Origin: an uncultured Pseudomonadota bacterium
GTDB lineage: Bacteria > Myxococcota_A > UBA796 > GCA-2862545
DNA: 64,000 nt
Reading direction: 5' to 3'
Assembly: GCA_903861005.1 (NCBI GenBank)
Contig: CAIOSP010000068.1
Span: 62,001-126,000 of the forward strand
Shown: positions 54,558 through 63,857 of the stretch, piece by piece
Layout: every line of letters starts with the position of its first letter
Position numbering within the stretch: position 1 is the first letter of the stretch
The notes under the pieces: generated by a model
Told to the model about the DNA's origin: nothing
Databases searched by the model: none
What the model saw: only the letters and a program-made list of their open reading frames with translations
Program-made: the position numbers and the translations under genes

Positions 54558-55310
54558 ATGCGACACTCTGCCCAACACCTCACCTTCCTCCTCGTGACCG
54601 CCGGCCTCGGCGGGTGCGCCGCGTCCCACGCGATCGCCCCGCTTGAGAAGGGGCAGTCCGGGATCACCTCGTCGATCGGCGGACCCTTCGTCCAGTACGG
54701 TTCGGCGCCCATCCCACTGCCCATCGTCTCCGTTGGCTACCGCTACGGCATCGACGGTCACACGGACGTGCACGGGTCGGTCTACCTGACGCAGCTCGCG
54801 CTGTTCAAGGTCGGCGGCTTCGACGTGGGCGTCGCGCGGGAGCTCCTGACGGCGGACGGCCCGCGCCCGCGCATCATGGCGGACCTCAACACCCACTGGT
54901 TCTTCGGCGACCGCGCCAAGACCGGCCCCGACGGCGGCTTCCGGTTCTTCCCGGACCTCTCGCTGGTGGCCACCTGGGATCTGGGCCGCGCCAAGCACCA
55001 CCTCTACGTGGGCGTGGACAACTTCTTCGAGGTCGCGCCCAGCTTCCGCTACTACCCGACGCCCATCCTGGGGACGGAGCTCAAGGCCAGCAAGGGCTTG
55101 GGCATCCAGCTTGAGCTCGGCTGGAACGCGTTCTGGAAGGACACCCTGCCGGTGAACCCGGTGTGGTACGGCCCCGGAAACCTGGGCGCTGTCTCGGTGA
55201 AGATCGGCTTCAACGGCTACTTCCCGACCACCAAGAAGCACTCGTCCAAGCAGGCGGCCCCAGACCCGGTCGTCGCAGAGCCCGCCGCGGCTCCGATGGA
55301 GGCGCCATGA
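54558..55310 (+). CDS. Lipoprotein with barrel-like domain
   Basis: 250 residues from ATG 54558. Lipobox Cys20 (TAGLGGC). Strands alternate through the mature part: IVSVGYRYGIDGHTDVHGSV, FDVGVARELLT, RIMADLNTHWFFG, FFPDLSLVATWDLGRAKHHL, GIQLELGWNAFW, AVSVKIGFNGYF. The pattern is that of a small outer-membrane barrel. A charged Pro/Ala tail follows. Its TGA overlaps the ATG of the hydrolase gene (ATGA, 55307-55310), so both are co-translated. Not recognised beyond this. Confidence 0.65.
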   Translation: MRHSAQHLTFLLVTAGLGGCAASHAIAPLEKGQSGITSSIGGPFVQYGSAPIPLPIVSVGYRYGIDGHTDVHGSVYLTQLALFKVGGFDVGVARELLTADGPRPRIMADLNTHWFFGDRAKTGPDGGFRFFPDLSLVATWDLGRAKHHLYVGVDNFFEVAPSFRYYPTPILGTELKASKGLGIQLELGWNAFWKDTLPVNPVWYGPGNLGAVSVKIGFNGYFPTTKKHSSKQAAPDPVVAEPAAAPMEAP

Positions 55311-56140
55311 ACAAGCTGATCTTCGTCGCGGGCGCCCTGTCGCTCGCGTCCGCCTGCATGAGCCTCGACGGCATGGTCGCCCCCGGCGAGCAGCTCGACG
55401 CCTACGACCTCCCCACCGACGTCATCCCGGCGGACCTTCAGGAGATCGTCTCCTTCGAGTCCGGCGACGGCGCCAAGCTCTACGGCATGTGGGCTCACCA
55501 GCCCACGTCCAAGCCGCCGCTGATCTGGATCCACGGCAACGGCGGCTCGTTCCAGGCCGACTTCCAGCGCGTGGAGTTCTACTGGGGCTGGCAGGACTAC
55601 GACGTCTTCGCCCTCGACTACCGCGGCTACGGCATGTCGGACGGCCCCGCCGAGCGCGACGGCATCCTGGAAGAGGACGGCCTGGCGGCGGTCCAGTACG
55701 TGTCGGACACCACCGGCGTGCCCCCCGAGGAGATCCCCTGGGTGGCGCTGTCCCTGGGTGCCGCCGTCGCGGCGCACACCTCCGACGAGATCCCGGCGCG
55801 CGGCATCGTGCTCGAGAGCATGTTCGCGTCGACCGATCGCCTGCTCGACGAAGGCAGCGGCCTGGACCTGCCCACCGGCTGGTTCTTCACGGACGAGTGG
55901 AACAATGTGGAGGCGGTGTCCCACGCCATCTCGCCGGTGTTCGTCATCCACGGCCTCGCCGATGACTTCATCGATCCCAAGTTCGGCCGTGAGGTCTACG
56001 CCGCGGCGCCCGATCCCAAGCAGCTCTGGCAGCCGCCTGGCGTGAACCACTCGGACTCCATCGAGGTGGTGCCGGACGAGTACACGCAGAAGGTGAAGGC
56101 CTTCTTCGCCGACCCCGACGGGGACCCGTCGACGCCTTGA
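55307..56140 (+). CDS. Alpha/beta-hydrolase lipoprotein
   Basis: 277 residues, lipobox Cys17 (LASAC). PPLIWIHGNGGSFQADFQ holds the oxyanion HGNG motif, ALDYRGYGMSDG is the next family block, S149 in ALSLGAA is the probable nucleophile, D219 or D220 in HGLADDFID the acid, and H248 in GVNHSD the base. It is similar to BEM46/YfhR-type serine hydrolases. As a lipoprotein it works in the envelope, on an ester or acyl substrate that is not known. It is coupled to the barrel-like lipoprotein before it, and the phosphohexomutase gene follows after 17 bases. Confidence 0.88.
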   Translation: MNKLIFVAGALSLASACMSLDGMVAPGEQLDAYDLPTDVIPADLQEIVSFESGDGAKLYGMWAHQPTSKPPLIWIHGNGGSFQADFQRVEFYWGWQDYDVFALDYRGYGMSDGPAERDGILEEDGLAAVQYVSDTTGVPPEEIPWVALSLGAAVAAHTSDEIPARGIVLESMFASTDRLLDEGSGLDLPTGWFFTDEWNNVEAVSHAISPVFVIHGLADDFIDPKFGREVYAAAPDPKQLWQPPGVNHSDSIEVVPDEYTQKVKAFFADPDGDPSTP

Positions 56141-56157
56141 GAGTGTAGGGAGAGGGC

Positions 56158-57879
56158 ATGGACATCGACGCGCTGCGGGCTGCCGCGACCGCTTGGGTCG
56201 CGCTCGCGCCTGCTGACGACGAACCCGAGGCGGTGACTGAGATGCTCGCGCGTGGCGACGACGCCGCGCTGCGCGAGCACTTCGGCGCCACGCTCGACTT
56301 TGGCACCGGCGGCATGCGCGGTCGCATGGGGCCGGGCACCAACCGCATGAACCGGCTGATGATCCGGCGCGTGACGTCCGCGCTCGCGCACGTGCTCGCG
56401 CAGACCCGGCCCGGCGCGAGCGACCAGGGCGTCGCGGTCGCCTACGACGCTCGGCGTCGCTCCGCCGCGTTCGCCGAGGAGGCCGCGCTCGTGCTGGCCG
56501 CCGCGGGCTTTGTGGTCCACCTGTCCCCGACGCCCGAGCCCACGCCGGTCTTGGGCTTCGCCACCACGTTCTTGGGCGCGGCGGCCGGCATCATCATCAC
56601 CGCCAGCCACAACCCGGCGGCCGACAACGGCTACAAGGTGTTCGACTGGCGCGGCGCGCAGATCGTCGAGCCCTTCGACACGGACGTGTGCGCCACCATG
56701 CTCGCGTCCAGCGCGTCCATCGCGGTGGCGGACGACGCCACGCGCGCGCGCCGGGTGCGCCTCTGGCCCAGCGATCTGCTCGGCGCCTACCACGCGGGCG
56801 TGCAGGCCGTCCGGATCCGCAAGTCGGCGCCGCTGCGCATCGTCTACACGCCCGTGCATGGCGTGGGCGGCATCCCCGCGCTGCGGGCGCTGCGCGACGC
56901 AGGCTACGCGCACGTGTCCCCCGTGCCAGAGCAGCTTGAGCCGGACGCCCGCTTCCCGACGGTGCCGTTCCCCAACCCTGAGGAGCCCGGCGTCCTGGCG
57001 CTGGCGATGTCGCTGGCCTCGCGCGAGCACGCCAACCTCATCCTCGCGAACGATCCGGACGCGGACCGCCTCGCGGTCGCGGTCCCCGATCGCCGCGGCG
57101 GCTGGCGCCAGCTGTCGGGCAACCAGGTCGGCGTGCTGCTGGCCAACGACCTGCTCTCCCGCGATCGGCGCAGCGAGAAGGACCTCGTCGCCACGACGAT
57201 TGTGTCGACCGCCATGGTCGCGCGCATCGCCGCCCGCTACGGCGCGCGCTGCGTGGAGACGCTGACCGGCTTCAAGTGGATCGCGCAGGCGGCGCTCGCG
57301 CACGAGGCGAACGGCGGTCGCTTCCTGTTCGGGTTCGAGGAGTCGATCGGCTACACGGCCGGCACCCTCGTGCGCGACAAGGACGGCATCTCTACGGCGG
57401 TGCTCGTCGCAGACATGGCGGCGGCCTGGCACGCGCGCGGCCTGTCGCTCGCAGACGCGCTGCAGTCGCTCTACCAGACGCACGGCCTGCACGTGTCGCG
57501 CCCGGTGAGCCTCAAGCGGCCTGGCTTGGACGGTCTCGCGGAGATCCGCGCCGCCATGAAGCGCCTGCGCAGCGCCCCGCCGCTTCACCTGGGCGGACGC
57601 GCGGTCGTCGGCTCGCGCGACGTGCTCCACGGCGTCGGCACACGCGCGGACGCCAGCACGTACGCGCTCGACCTGCCCGCCAGCGACGTGCTCGCGTTCG
57701 AGCTGGAGGACGGCAGCCGCGCGCTCATCCGTCCGTCCGGCACCGAGCCCAAGATCAAGCTGTACCTGGAGGCGCGCGAGGCGCTCGCCGACGCCGAGGC
57801 CTGGGAGGACGCCGAAGAGCGCGTCGCCCCTGCGCTGATCGAGATCGAGAAGGACCTGCGCGCGGCGGCCGGACTCTAG
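56158..57879 (+). CDS. Phosphoglucomutase/phosphomannomutase family protein
   Basis: 573-residue alpha-D-phosphohexomutase. The phospho-Ser is S150 in TASHNP, Mg2+ is bound by D299, D301 and D303 (DPDADR), the sugar loop is GFEESIGY, and RPSGTEPKIK binds the phosphate. FGTGGMRGRMGPGTNRMN at the start and the overall length match the PGM2/PgcA type rather than the shorter GlmM or AlgC type. It interconverts hexose 1- and 6-phosphates for glycogen, cell-wall or exopolysaccharide synthesis. Its stop overlaps that of the convergent hybrid kinase (CTAG, 57876-57879). Confidence 0.93.
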   Translation: MDIDALRAAATAWVALAPADDEPEAVTEMLARGDDAALREHFGATLDFGTGGMRGRMGPGTNRMNRLMIRRVTSALAHVLAQTRPGASDQGVAVAYDARRRSAAFAEEAALVLAAAGFVVHLSPTPEPTPVLGFATTFLGAAAGIIITASHNPAADNGYKVFDWRGAQIVEPFDTDVCATMLASSASIAVADDATRARRVRLWPSDLLGAYHAGVQAVRIRKSAPLRIVYTPVHGVGGIPALRALRDAGYAHVSPVPEQLEPDARFPTVPFPNPEEPGVLALAMSLASREHANLILANDPDADRLAVAVPDRRGGWRQLSGNQVGVLLANDLLSRDRRSEKDLVATTIVSTAMVARIAARYGARCVETLTGFKWIAQAALAHEANGGRFLFGFEESIGYTAGTLVRDKDGISTAVLVADMAAAWHARGLSLADALQSLYQTHGLHVSRPVSLKRPGLDGLAEIRAAMKRLRSAPPLHLGGRAVVGSRDVLHGVGTRADASTYALDLPASDVLAFELEDGSRALIRPSGTEPKIKLYLEAREALADAEAWEDAEERVAPALIEIEKDLRAAAGL

Positions 57880-59603
57880 ACGCTCCGCAGCGCCTTGTGC
57901 AGCGCGTCGCGGACGACGGGCTTCTCCAAGAAGCCAGTGACGCCCGCGTCTTCGCAGGCGTGGCGGTCGTCGTCGAACGCGTTCGCGGTCATCGCGATGA
58001 TCGGCAGGTCGACGAACTGCATGTCGTTGCGGAGCCTGCGGGTGGCCTCGATGCCGCCGACCCGCCGCATGCGCACGTCGACCAGGACGACGTCCGGATG
58101 GAACACGCGCGCCGCCTCGACGATCGTCTCGCCATCGCCGATCAACTCGACCGCGTGACCCAGGCCCTCCAGCATGGAGCGGATCACGAGCTGATTGACC
58201 TCGTCGTCCTCGGCGACCAGCACGCGCAGCGCCGCGATGCTCGGGCCCTTGTTCGACGTGGACTCCGTCGGGTCGTCCTCCACCGTGGCGTTCACGAGCG
58301 GCAAGCGAACCCAGAACGTGGAGCCGGCGCCCACGCGGCTCTCGACCTCGAGCGTGCCGCCCATGGCCTGCACGAGCAGGCGCGAGATCGACAGGCCGAG
58401 GCCCATGCCGCGGTCGACGGGGGGCTCTTCGGGATCCACGAACGGGGAGAAGATGGCGTCGAGGCGCTCGCGGGCGATGCCGACGCCGGTGTCCGACACC
58501 CACAGCACCAGCGTGTCGCCGCGGGCGCGGACGCTTAGGGACACCGTGCCCGACTCGGTGAACTTCACCGCGTTGGCCACCAGGTTGATCAGCACCTGAC
58601 GGATGCGGGCCGGGTCGCCGCGCAGGCGCGCGGGCACGTCGGTGCTCACGTCGACCACCAACTCCAGGCCTTTGCCGCGCGCCTCCGGCTCGAACAGCGC
58701 GACCACCTGCCGCGCGAGCACGTGCGGGCGGAAGGCGCGGTTGCGGAGCTCGATGGTGCCGGCGTCCAGGCGTGCGGAGTCCAGCAGGTCGTCGAGCAAG
58801 GCCAGCAACGCGCCGCCGGTGGTGCGGATGGTCCGGATCCACTCGGTCTGCTTCGGATCGAGCTTGGTGTCGGCGATCGCGTCCGCCAGACCCAGGATGC
58901 CGGTCATGGGCGTGCGCAGCTCTTGGCTCACGCTCGCGAGGATGCTCGACTTGGCGCGGCCCGCGGCCTCGGCGCGCGCCAGGGCCTTCTCGTCGCCGGC
59001 GTGCTGCGCGTGGATGTCGAGCATGGCGCGCTCGCGTGTGTACGCTGTCATCAGGTGCACGAGCGCAGACAACACCACGATCACGGAGACGTCGAGGGGC
59101 ACCTCGTACATCGGGGTGTGGGTCGCGGGGAGCAGGCCTCGCGCACCCGCCCAAAGCTGCACGCCGATGAGCGCGATGAGCGCGATCAGCGACCCCAGCG
59201 CGCCGCTCGGCCCCGTCACCGCCAGGGCGACCGCTGGGTAGAGCGGCAGCCAAACGGTATACACAGAGCCCATCCCGCCGCCTACGGTGAGGGCGATCGC
59301 CATCTCGACCAAGGCCAACAGGTTGAACAGCATCCCGGTCAGGCGCAGGTTCCGGGTCGACCGGTAGATCAACGGGAGCGCGGCGAACCCAAAGAAGCCT
59401 ACCCAGAGGCTCAGATCCATCGCCACGAGCTTGAACGCGTGCGACGCGATGTACGACGTGGCGCAGAGGGCCGACACCGTCGCGGACGACACGACCATTG
59501 CGCGAGCCCGGGTCCGCTCGGTAGACGCTCGAGCCGCCACGTCCTGCGGGAGGAGTCGGTCAACCTTCGGGAGAAGCCAGCGTTGAGGGGCCTTGATGTC
59601 CAC
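57876..59603 (-). CDS. Hybrid histidine-kinase-like protein lacking the phospho-accepting His
   Basis: 575 residues, GTG start directly after the stop of the upstream paralogue (GGAG nine bases before). About six membrane helices (35-185) form the sensor. The dimerisation helix reads ILASVSQELRTPMTGILG: Gln227 (codon CAA, 58925-58923) stands where the phospho-His should be. The ATPase part seems intact (LINLVANAVKFTESG, VSDTGVGIA, GMGLGLSIS), and the receiver domain has its acidic pair (AEDDEVN), phospho-Asp (VLVDVRM) and Lys (LEKP). It may regulate its neighbour in a heterodimer or pass on signals without autophosphorylation. Convergent with the phosphohexomutase. Confidence 0.9.
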   Translation of the reverse strand: MDIKAPQRWLLPKVDRLLPQDVAARASTERTRARAMVVSSATVSALCATSYIASHAFKLVAMDLSLWVGFFGFAALPLIYRSTRNLRLTGMLFNLLALVEMAIALTVGGGMGSVYTVWLPLYPAVALAVTGPSGALGSLIALIALIGVQLWAGARGLLPATHTPMYEVPLDVSVIVVLSALVHLMTAYTRERAMLDIHAQHAGDEKALARAEAAGRAKSSILASVSQELRTPMTGILGLADAIADTKLDPKQTEWIRTIRTTGGALLALLDDLLDSARLDAGTIELRNRAFRPHVLARQVVALFEPEARGKGLELVVDVSTDVPARLRGDPARIRQVLINLVANAVKFTESGTVSLSVRARGDTLVLWVSDTGVGIARERLDAIFSPFVDPEEPPVDRGMGLGLSISRLLVQAMGGTLEVESRVGAGSTFWVRLPLVNATVEDDPTESTSNKGPSIAALRVLVAEDDEVNQLVIRSMLEGLGHAVELIGDGETIVEAARVFHPDVVLVDVRMRRVGGIEATRRLRNDMQFVDLPIIAMTANAFDDDRHACEDAGVTGFLEKPVVRDALHKALRSV

Positions 59604-61352
59604 CTATTCGAGCTCCTGCGTCAGCGCGTCGAGCGAGCGTTGTAGTGAATCTCGGGTCACCGGTTTGGATACCATGCCGTTCATGCCCGCGTGCATGCAT
59701 TGTTCGTGTTCTCCCGGCACAGACCCCGCCGTCAGCGCCAGCACGGGGAGTCGCTTGAAGCGCGGGTCGCGACGCAGGCGGCGCGTGGCCTCCAGGCCGC
59801 CCAGGCCGGGCATCTGCACGTCCATCAGCACGAGATCCGCGTCGAACGTTCGCAAGCGGTCGAGGGCGTCTTGCCCGTTGCCGACCACCACGACCGAGTG
59901 CCCGATCGACTCCAGCATGGTCCGCACGACCATCTGGTTGAGGAGATTGTCGTCGGCGACCAGCACCTTCAGTCGGACCCGGGGCGGCGAGAGCGTGACC
60001 TCGGTGTCCGTGGGGTCGTCGAGCGTCGCCTCGACCAGGGGGAGGGCGACCACGAACGTGGTCCCGACGCCGACGTGGCTCTCCACGGTGACGCGCCCGC
60101 CCATCCGCTCCGCGAGCAGCCGGACGATCGACAGGCCGAGGCCCGCGCCGTGCCCGCCGTCGCGCTTGGGGTCGAGCTGCAGGAAGGGCTTGAAGACGTC
60201 CGGGAGGCGGTCGGCGGGGATCCCGGCGCCGGTGTCCTGGACGCCGATGCACAGCATGCCGTCGTCCATCCACGCGCGGATGGAGACCTCGCCGCGGACC
60301 GTGTACTTCACGGCGTTTCCGAGCAGGTTCACCAAGATCTGTCGGAGCCGCGCCGGGTCGCCTCGCATGCGCTCGGGGACCTCCGCGTGGACCGTCGCGT
60401 GGACCGTGATCGACTTGGCGGCGATCGGCGCAAACAGGGCGGCCACCTGCTCCAAGAGCTTGGCCGGGTAGAAGGGTATGTCGCACAGCGGCATCGCGCC
60501 TGCGTCCAGGCGGGTCGCGTCCAGCAGGTCGTCGACCACCGTGAGCAGCGCCTCGCCTGTGCCGCGGATGGTGCGGACCCACGCGGTCTGACGGGCGTCC
60601 AGCGGGGTCTCCGACAGCAGATCGGCCAAGCCGAGGATCCCGGTCATCGGGGTGCGAACCTCGTGCGAGACGCTGGCCATCAGGTGGGTCTTGGCGCGGC
60701 TCTCCGCCTCAGCGATGGTCCGGGCGTGCGCCTCGGCCGCCCGCTGTTGCGCAAGCTCCGCGCGGCTCTGGCGTCGCGCGGTCGACACCACCAGCAGCGT
60801 CAGCACCGCGAGCGTCGACTGCAGCGCGATGCCCAGCGCGCGCGACCGCGCGTCTTCCGACATGGGCCCGTAAACGTCTTGCTCCATCGCCGCGATCCAC
60901 GCCGCCATCGCGACAACGATCACGGCAAACGCAGACCACGCGGCGCGGTGGTTCTGCGTCACCAACACGCCCAGCGGCATGGCTGAGATCCAGGGCGCCA
61001 GCGGAGAGTCCAGACCGCCGGTCACCGTGATGGCGGTCACGAACCCGGCGATCGCGACCGCGGACAGGACGTGCGCCGCCACCCCGAGCGGAAGCCCACG
61101 GCGAAACGCCACCATCAAGCCGATCAACAGCGCCGCTGTGACCAGGACGATCGTGGCCGTGCCCTCCGTGGGGTGGGTGGCGGCCAGCAGCACACCTGCG
61201 GCCACGTCCGTGCCCAGGAACACCAGCGCCGTGACCACGAAAGCGCGCCCCGCCTGCAGCGTCTTCACGTCGGACCTGTCGATCCAGCCCGGCGGCGCCG
61301 TCATCGCGACGGCACGGTCGACCAAGCCGGAGCTTGTCCTGGCTACGTCCAT
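59604..61352 (-). CDS. Hybrid sensor histidine kinase / response regulator
   Basis: 582 residues with about six membrane helices (32-195), a linker helix, and the complete dimerisation and ATPase domains: H230 in MASVSHEVRTPMTGILG, LVNLLGNAVKYTVRG, VQDTGAGIP, GAGLGLSIV. The C-terminal receiver has DDNLLN, the phospho-Asp in LVLMDVQMPG and Lys in VSKPVT. It is a close paralogue of the following gene, with which it abuts (stop TAG then GTG), so the two likely act together. No separate DNA-binding output is encoded nearby. It is divergent from the ABC transporter. Confidence 0.95.
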   Translation of the reverse strand: MDVARTSSGLVDRAVAMTAPPGWIDRSDVKTLQAGRAFVVTALVFLGTDVAAGVLLAATHPTEGTATIVLVTAALLIGLMVAFRRGLPLGVAAHVLSAVAIAGFVTAITVTGGLDSPLAPWISAMPLGVLVTQNHRAAWSAFAVIVVAMAAWIAAMEQDVYGPMSEDARSRALGIALQSTLAVLTLLVVSTARRQSRAELAQQRAAEAHARTIAEAESRAKTHLMASVSHEVRTPMTGILGLADLLSETPLDARQTAWVRTIRGTGEALLTVVDDLLDATRLDAGAMPLCDIPFYPAKLLEQVAALFAPIAAKSITVHATVHAEVPERMRGDPARLRQILVNLLGNAVKYTVRGEVSIRAWMDDGMLCIGVQDTGAGIPADRLPDVFKPFLQLDPKRDGGHGAGLGLSIVRLLAERMGGRVTVESHVGVGTTFVVALPLVEATLDDPTDTEVTLSPPRVRLKVLVADDNLLNQMVVRTMLESIGHSVVVVGNGQDALDRLRTFDADLVLMDVQMPGLGGLEATRRLRRDPRFKRLPVLALTAGSVPGEHEQCMHAGMNGMVSKPVTRDSLQRSLDALTQELE

Positions 61353-61376
61353 CTGTTCCCCCCCCGGGGACCCGGT

Positions 61377-61410
61377 CGTGCTACCGATCGGTCACGTCCA
61401 GACTAGCACG
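61377..61410. promoter_or_regulatory. Inverted repeat in divergent control region
   Basis: CGTGCTA (61377-61383) and TAGCACG (61404-61410), perfect 7-base arms 20 bases apart, between the hybrid kinase start (61352) and the ABC transporter start (61522). A candidate binding site for a dimeric regulator; no consensus promoter was recognised around it. Confidence 0.3.
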
Positions 61411-61521
61411 GTTGCAAGCGGAGTCCGGCCAATTGTGGCGCAGCAGGGTCGACGGTGTCGTCGCGGTCGGGATCCTGGCCACGGCGGCGACGCGACGATC
61501 CCAACACGTTACCGTCCGAGC

Positions 61522-62241
61522 ATGGTGAACGTCGTCGAAGTCGAGGGTCTGACCAAGGTGTACGACGGCGCACCGGCCGTCGAGGACCTGTCCTTCGCGC
61601 TGCCTGCCGGGCGGGTCTGCGGCATGGTCGGTCCGAACGGGGCCGGCAAGACCACCACGCTCCGCATGCTGTGCGGCATCCTTCGCCCCACGCGAGGCTC
61701 CGTCCGCGTGATGGGACACGACGTGCACCGCGACCCGATCTCGGCCAAGCGCGCGCTCGCCTGGGTGCCCAACGACCCACAGCCGTTCGAGGCGCTGACC
61801 GTCCAGGAGCACCTGGAGTTTGTCGCCAGCACCTGGCAGGTCGCCGACTACCAGACGCTGGCGGAGGCGTTGCTTCGCCGCTTCGAGCTGCTCGACAAGG
61901 CGAACGCGCCCGCCCAGACGCTCTCCACCGGCATGCGGCAGAAGCTGTCGCTGTGCTGTGCGGCGCTGCATCGGCCTGAGCTCTACGTGTTCGACGAGCC
62001 GATGACCGGTCTGGACCCGCTCGCCATCCGTGAGATGCGCGGCTGGGTGCGCGAGGAGGCCGCGCGCGGCGCCACCCTCTTGGTGTCGTCGCACCTGCTC
62101 AGCCTCGTCGAGGACCTCTGCACCGACCTTCTGATCGTGGTGCGCGGCAAGCGCGTGTTCTTCGGGCCCATGGAGGAGGCGCGGAGCCAGTTCTCCGAGC
62201 ACCGGCTTGAGGACCTGTTCTTCCAGGCCACCTCGACGTGA
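61522..62241 (+). CDS. ABC transporter ATP-binding protein
   Basis: 239-residue ATPase of ABC-2 type. Walker A is GPNGAGKTTT, the signature LSTGMRQKLSL, Walker B LYVFDEPMTGLDP, and the switch His is in LVSSHLLS. MVNVVEVEGLTKVYDG is a standard start. It energises export by the membrane protein encoded directly after it, whose GTG overlaps its stop (GTGA, 62238-62241). The substrate cannot be inferred. Upstream frame to 60979 is antisense to the hybrid kinase and was not used. Confidence 0.95.
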   Translation: MVNVVEVEGLTKVYDGAPAVEDLSFALPAGRVCGMVGPNGAGKTTTLRMLCGILRPTRGSVRVMGHDVHRDPISAKRALAWVPNDPQPFEALTVQEHLEFVASTWQVADYQTLAEALLRRFELLDKANAPAQTLSTGMRQKLSLCCAALHRPELYVFDEPMTGLDPLAIREMRGWVREEAARGATLLVSSHLLSLVEDLCTDLLIVVRGKRVFFGPMEEARSQFSEHRLEDLFFQATST

Positions 62242-63857
62242 GCCCCTGGCTCCCTCCGGGGCTGTGGCGGCTGATCCGGGTGCGCATTCGGGCCGCCGGT
62301 CGCGCGCAGCTCAACCGCATGCGGACGCCGTGGGGCGCGCTGTCGGCGCTCGCCACCGTGTTCTTCCTGTTCGCCTGGTTCCTTCCCCGATGGCTGAGCC
62401 CGGACTTCAGCCACCGGATGGACGCCGTGTCGGTGCAGCGCGTGGGGCCGTTTGGCCTGCTGGTCTTGTGGGCCGGTCAGATCACGGTGCGCGGCGGCGG
62501 CGAGGTGCTGGGCTTCGTCCCGGCCGAGGTCGAGCACCTGTTCGCGGCGCCGTACAAGCCGTCCGAGCTGCTGCGCTACAAGGTGACGGTGCTGTTCGTG
62601 ACGTGGTGGCTGGGGGCCTTGCTGCTCACGCCGATCGCGTCGTTCTACGCGCACACGCTGCTGGGCGCGCTCCTGTCGGTGTCGCTGGTGCTGCCGTTCC
62701 TCCAGCTGTCGGCGATGGTGTCGGCGATGGTGCGCGACGGCGGGAAGCGCAGGCCGTGGTTCCGGGTCGCCTTCATCGCGGTCGCCGCCAGCCTGCCACT
62801 GCTCGCGCTGAAGATGGGACCGCACCGGACGCCCGCCATGTGGGCGACGCTGGGCGCCGTGCTCGACGCGCCTATCTCCGGCACGCTGCTGCTCCCGTTC
62901 GCCTCGGCGTCGATCCTGGTGGGGTCGGACAGCCTGGCCGAGGTGCTGCGCGCGGGCGGTGTGCTCGCGGCGGTCGACGTGGCGCTCGTCGTCATCCTGC
63001 TCCTCCTGGGCCGCGGTGAGTGGCTGGAGACGGCGGCCGAGGGCGCGTCGTACATGCAGCAGGTCCGGTCGCGGTACCGCTCTGGCGGCATGTCGACGTT
63101 CGGAACCGTGGGGTCGTGGAGCGTGCCGCGCTTCCCGCGGTGGGGCGGCGCCGGGCCGCTGCTCTGGCGGCGCTTCACCGAGCTGGTGCGCCGTCCGGCC
63201 ACCTTCGCCACGCTGGGCGGCGTGATCCTCCTGGTGGCGGTGCTCGCGGTGGCCTTGCCCGGCGGTCATGGCCAGCGGGAGTCGTCCGCGTACGCGCTCG
63301 CGGTCGCGTCGTTCGTGTGGAGCATGGTGCTTGTCCCTGGCGTGCTGCGCGCGGACTTCCGCGCCGAGCTCGACCAGATGGACCGGCTGCTCGCGCTGCC
63401 CGTGCACCCGGTGGCGGTGGTGGTGGGCGTGACGCTGCCGGTGGCGGTGGCCTCCGCGGCCCTGGAGATGGTGCTGCTGTCGGGCGTTGGGCTCTACATG
63501 CCGAACGTCGGCGCCGAGCTGGCCCCGCTGTTTGTCGTCGTGCCGTCCTTCGCCGCCATGGTGGTGTCGGTCGAGAACATGCTCTTCCTGTTCCTGCCAG
63601 TGCGCGTGGAGTCGGGCGAGGCCGCGCTGCAGTCGGTCGGGCGCAACCTCATCGTGTCGATGCTCGGCTGGGGCATGCAGGGCATCGCATTCGGGCTGGG
63701 CGCGGCCGCCGCGTTTGGCGCCATCTGGGTGACCGGCAACCTGTGGTTCGCGGCCACGGTCGCCTCGGGTGCGCTGCTCGCGTTCACGGCTGGCTGTGTC
63801 CTTGTCGCCGCGTGGCGCCTGCGCCGCTTCGACCCCAGCAAGCACGTCCCGCGCTAG
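62238..63857 (+). CDS. ABC transporter permease (putative ABC exporter)
   Basis: 539 residues, GTG start overlapping the ATPase stop. About ten to twelve membrane helices, among them ALSALATVFFLFAWFLP, LLGALLSVSLVLPFLQLSAM, ILLVAVLAVALPGG and IAFGLGAAAAFGAIWV. The stretch GFVPAEVEHLFAAPYKPSEL, between helices, is typical of the putative ABC exporter permeases in which a cytoplasmic loop contacts the ATPase. It forms the transporter with 61522-62241. Its TAG overlaps the stop of the convergent partial gene in CTAG (63854-63857). Confidence 0.85.
   Translation: MSPWLPPGLWRLIRVRIRAAGRAQLNRMRTPWGALSALATVFFLFAWFLPRWLSPDFSHRMDAVSVQRVGPFGLLVLWAGQITVRGGGEVLGFVPAEVEHLFAAPYKPSELLRYKVTVLFVTWWLGALLLTPIASFYAHTLLGALLSVSLVLPFLQLSAMVSAMVRDGGKRRPWFRVAFIAVAASLPLLALKMGPHRTPAMWATLGAVLDAPISGTLLLPFASASILVGSDSLAEVLRAGGVLAAVDVALVVILLLLGRGEWLETAAEGASYMQQVRSRYRSGGMSTFGTVGSWSVPRFPRWGGAGPLLWRRFTELVRRPATFATLGGVILLVAVLAVALPGGHGQRESSAYALAVASFVWSMVLVPGVLRADFRAELDQMDRLLALPVHPVAVVVGVTLPVAVASAALEMVLLSGVGLYMPNVGAELAPLFVVVPSFAAMVVSVENMLFLFLPVRVESGEAALQSVGRNLIVSMLGWGMQGIAFGLGAAAAFGAIWVTGNLWFAATVASGALLAFTAGCVLVAAWRLRRFDPSKHVPR

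Follow-up and report, generated by a model that had tools for sequence, protein, structure and literature searches.

Can a hybrid histidine kinase that carries glutamine at its phospho-acceptor site still contribute to signaling, and would it do so alone or through the histidine-bearing sister encoded beside it? Two abutting genes, here called A and B, raise this question within the window (the whole stretch of 64,000 nt that was analyzed). The features concerned are the following, with positions counted along the window.

59604–61352, minus strand: gene A, a hybrid sensor histidine kinase of 582 aa (from its ORF, Pfam, and hydropathy), with a membrane sensor at approximately residues 34–193, HisKA at 221–285, HATPase_c at 331–439, and a receiver at 463–573
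57876–59603, minus strand: gene B, a hybrid kinase of 575 aa and paralogue of A (from its ORF, Pfam, and predicted fold), with HisKA at residues 218–282, HATPase_c at 329–436, and a receiver at 461–573
60663–60665, minus strand: His230 codon of A (CAC), the phospho-acceptor of the partner
58923–58925, minus strand: Gln227 codon of B (CAA)
59601–59616, minus strand: A/B junction, with GGAG, the TAG stop of A, and the GTG start of B
57876–57879: tail-to-tail overlap of 4 bases (CTAG) between the stop codons of B and of a phosphohexomutase gene

The HisKA, HATPase_c, and Response_reg domains of both proteins scored above the Pfam cut-offs. The sequence around the dimerization helix was SVSHEVRTPMTGILG in A, with His230, and SVSQELRTPMTGILG in B, with Gln227; the H-box read SVSHEVRTPM in A vs. 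SVSQELRTPM in B. The original prediction of a common domain order and a shared helix sequence was thus borne out (HisKA, HATPase_c, and receiver in both, with dimerization domains 67% identical), and the codon read at 58925–58923 was CAA, as it had said. It had also taken the two genes to be translationally linked. The GTG of B begins at the base right after the TAG of A, and GGAG lies nine bases upstream of the GTG, within the 3′ end of A. With this arrangement, coupling is plausible, and A and B are probably translationally coupled. A scan for sigma-70 promoters gave no match.

A tree built from 121 kinase cores placed A and B as sisters (SH-aLRT 97). The end branch of A measured 0.69 and that of B 0.53, so the core of B evolved no faster than that of A. 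Outside HisKA, A and B were less alike, at 50% identity over the ATPase and 45% over the receiver. A comparison set of 744 homologue pairs about as identical to each other in these two domains (pairs that are not independent of one another) averaged 52% in HisKA, and 1.3% of the set came up to the 67% of A and B. The nine residues after the site (PMTGILGLA) were common to A and B and absent from the rest of 133 homologues; from HisKA-receiver complexes, we take this segment to lie on the receiver-docking face. The likeness of the helices would fit the retention of a shared dimer or docking surface, and common descent could partly account for the high identity.

At the H-box, A has the phospho-acceptor histidine of a functional autokinase (His230) and B lacks it (Gln227). 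The genome is a single binned assembly (5.81 Mb, 223 contigs, 96.7% complete), and all of its 43 HisKA domains were read: 42 had His at the site and B alone had Gln, which argues that Gln227 is not a product of chance. Aligned kinase regions from homologues (n = 157) comprised 132 with His, 24 that did not cover the site, and one with Gln, which was B. At the DNA level, the canonical His H-box pattern occurred 2529 times in 379 genomes of the phylum and the Gln version four times, the reversed control of the pattern also yielding stray matches. B was the only kinase among the four; the three other matches were read and are not kinases. As far as these sequences go, H-boxes that are canonical except for a clean His-to-Gln swap are very rare.

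The phosphohexomutase adjoining B was 95% identical in the only genome of the same genus (G001), whose contig ends 44 codons and the stop into the orthologue of B, short of residue 227. The last 44 codons of B differed from G001 by six silent changes and one replacement, with no frameshift or stop; the C-terminal end of B is, by this comparison, conserved within the genus. At least B was present before the split of this genome (G000) and G001. The stops of the phosphohexomutase gene (plus strand) and of B (minus strand) overlap in the palindrome CTAG, where G001 has TTAA; both stops have therefore changed together, with the overlap kept. The remainder of the A/B pair was not found in the G001 assembly, even at the DNA level. 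There was no further orthologue of B among the matches listed in a scan of 84,980 species genomes, and no A/B orthologue was found through the sensor regions in 63 genomes of the order. Outside the genome itself, these searches gave only sensor relatives of 31–33% identity for B and none for A.

In a genome of the same family (G006), genes for a hydrolase, a phosphohexomutase, an ABC ATPase, and an ABC permease are contiguous, without the kinase pair. The window has the same order at 55307–63857 (hydrolase, phosphohexomutase, ABC ATPase, ABC export permease), with the kinase pair inserted between the second and third gene, in the opposite direction. The pair was gained in this lineage or lost in G006, probably as a unit. 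It is divergent from the adjoining ABC genes (ABC ATPase start at approximately 61522), and the exporter is for that reason a candidate target.

How far B has kept the equipment of a kinase was read from its conserved residues. With the N, G1, F, and G2 boxes of the ATPase and the Asp, Thr, and Lys of the receiver taken as the mark of an autokinase, all invariant columns were kept in B (ATPase: N344, D371, G373, G375, F385, G399, G401, and G403; receiver: D466, D509, T539, and K561). The conserved F-box Gln is absent through a 2-residue deletion, and the Pro of the receiver DxxMP motif is replaced by Arg (P513R; MP to MR). At 52 strongly conserved positions, B departed at five (F221I, H227Q, the F-box Gln deletion, G398R, and P513R) and A at four, the 95th percentile of the homologues being three. 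Because five of the 52 are broken, the F-box Gln included, the ATPase of B may be weakened. A structure model built from a 21-sequence alignment showed the folds of the DHp hairpin, the ATPase, and the receiver, with high confidence for the latter two, and B is predicted to fold as a kinase. The earlier description of the ATPase and receiver parts as intact therefore applies to the catalytic and invariant residues and gives way at the deleted F-box Gln and at Arg513. The accompanying view that B had not simply decayed agrees with the invariant residues, the full frame, and the end branch shorter than that of A; for the core, these last two points and the mostly silent changes led us to reject a decaying pseudogene. 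Judged from its sequence, B is slightly worn, not decayed.

B is best read as a putative pseudo-histidine kinase, and we see about an even chance that it works through A, in mixed dimers and/or via shared receivers. Duplication of an A-like hybrid kinase would have given rise to B, which would be unable to autophosphorylate at the usual histidine. Because its dimerization and receiver-docking helices still match those of A, B may be able to pair with A in mixed dimers and/or to dock the receivers that A docks. Within such a dimer, the intact ATPase of B could phosphorylate His230 of A, and from there the phosphate could pass to either receiver (that of A or that of B) and onward to an HPt protein encoded elsewhere. 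B would thereby serve as a second membrane input, tuning or draining the output of A. The original prediction had proposed a heterodimer with one phosphorylatable helix or a decoy that controls its partner; its interpretation is partly supported, by the clean H-to-Q change, the tandem and probably coupled sister pair, the retained ATP-binding and receiver residues, and the unusual likeness of the dimerization helices, and heterodimer and decoy are both candidate roles. We infer mixed dimers, trans-phosphorylation, shared receivers, and a glutamine that was selected rather than recent. In its strictest form, which we regard as unlikely, the pair would be an obligate, vertically kept heterodimer with a division of labor: the helix of A would be the only phosphorylatable one, B would add a second membrane sensor, an ATPase, and a second receiver, and Gln227, as a neutral mimic of His, would have been selected, keeping the helix geometry without the phosphate.

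The genome encodes six HPt domains, one of them in an orphan protein of 144 aa (C204:74097–74345) that gave the best HPt match in the genome. This orphan is a candidate to carry phosphate for those hybrid kinases that lack an output domain.

Known systems together cover the parts of the A/B arrangement, namely DivL, FasB-FasC, RetS-GacS, CCNA_03265, and ChrS-HrrS; the open-access papers that we found did not describe sister hybrid kinases that abut and have Gln in this position. DivL of Caulobacter crescentus and other alphaproteobacteria has Tyr550 at the phospho-acceptor site and keeps the H, N, G1, F, and G2 motifs (PMC4211667), and it controls a second hybrid kinase, CckA (PMC12189002). 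B likewise has a residue other than His at the site with the other histidine kinase motifs kept, and the DivL structure 4q20 was among its PDB matches. DivL differs in having Tyr, PAS sensors, and no receiver of its own, whereas in B the residue is Gln, the sensor is a membrane one, and an intact receiver is present; in addition, DivL is not a tandem sister of CckA. The residue of DivL is conserved across orthologues; for B, the one orthologue found is cut off short of the site. No PAS domain was matched in B by Pfam, and with a receiver and no PAS, B was ruled out as an orthologue of DivL.

FasB and FasC of group A Streptococcus are two kinase-like proteins from one operon that heterodimerize; the kinase domain of one is proposed to phosphorylate the His of its partner, and one member is a proposed pseudokinase (PMC12675982). 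The abutting A and B are, in the same way, two kinase-like genes in one operon, but FasB and FasC are not hybrid kinases, and FasC can do without its ATPase rather than without its His. In Pseudomonas aeruginosa, the hybrid kinases RetS and GacS form mixed dimers in which one partner inhibits the other, siphons phosphate off it, or dephosphorylates it (PMC12189002). RetS structures (6dk7 and 6dk8) were among the PDB sequences closest to B. The genes of RetS and GacS are not known to be abutting sisters, and RetS has a different sensor and two receivers. A RetS-like identity was ruled out for B, which has one receiver and a hydrophobic membrane sensor without a Pfam match.

CCNA_03265, described with HmrA in C. 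crescentus, resembles B in being a hybrid kinase without the conserved His; it keeps the receiver Asp, and a heterodimer with another hybrid kinase has been suggested (PMC11481889). Its replacement residue is not described there as Gln, and it is not part of a tandem sister pair. ChrS and HrrS of Corynebacterium glutamicum are paralogous kinases that heterodimerize. A ChrS pseudokinase whose ATPase domain was frameshifted in laboratory evolution stimulates output through HrrS and does not need its own His (PMC9491836). ChrS and HrrS differ from A and B in being neither hybrid nor tandem.

Against an action through A, B might instead function alone or as a homodimer, as a DivL-like reader or a phosphatase of phosphorylated receivers (belonging to A or to a regulator common to both), which it would sense or dephosphorylate via its remaining E-x-x-T. 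This is conceivable because E228, R230, and T231 remain in its H-box and, over PMTGILGLA, its docking helix beyond the site matches that of A exactly. DivL, which has all histidine kinase motifs but the His, dimerizes and binds phosphorylated DivK, but it has no phosphatase activity itself (PMC4211667). In HisKA proteins, the phosphatase residue is held by the E/DxxT/N motif (PMC11502775). The intact receiver and ATPase residues of B would be superfluous in a pure reader, and no output regulator adjoins the pair; we consider a role of this kind doubtful. It is extremely unlikely that B autophosphorylates on another histidine. A displaced His was considered for CCNA_03265 (PMC11481889), and B has H198 and H201 in the linker ahead of the dimerization helix. 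These are the nearest ones, however: HisKA of B (218–282) contains no His, and H198 and H201 lie 26–29 residues before the site, beside the membrane, presumably too far away for an ATPase in its normal docking position to reach.

The rarity of the Gln H-box also keeps a recent mutation or an error alive as readings. Gln227 may be a young transversion (CAC to CAA) confined to one strain or lineage, in which autophosphorylation has just been lost and no new function acquired. Such a change would agree with the count of one Gln H-box to 2529 with His across 379 genomes, with the evolution of B being no faster than that of A, and with breaks at conserved sites slightly above those of most homologues. 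CAA makes up approximately 10% of the Gln codons in the genes of the window (23 of 230), and its use points slightly toward a recent origin. The ratio of six silent changes to one replacement at the end of B within the genus and the open frame count against a recent loss, although both would also be seen if the change is very recent; on balance, we judge it improbable. As for an error, Q227 is known from one assembled genome, a single bin in 223 contigs, and the residue hinges on one base. Per-base assembly errors are rare, however, and the sequence around the site is clean and in frame, which makes it very unlikely that the organism actually has His.

Should the glutamine be fixed, the pair would offer a natural two-gene test of autophosphorylation split between sister hybrid kinase chains, and it would be a genetically linked addition to the few known pseudo-histidine kinases. 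A clean change of one residue in a kinase that otherwise works would keep the experiment simple.

A HisKA domain with the H-box AHELRTP was observed at C68:144207–144398, approximately 18 kb past the end of the window, at the contig end. The membrane sensors of A and B (window 59100–61250) belong to no Pfam family. In the sensor of A, the second or third hydrophobic segment is followed by a TGGLDSPL stretch, which may recall the GGxxNPF motif of RegB-type redox kinases.
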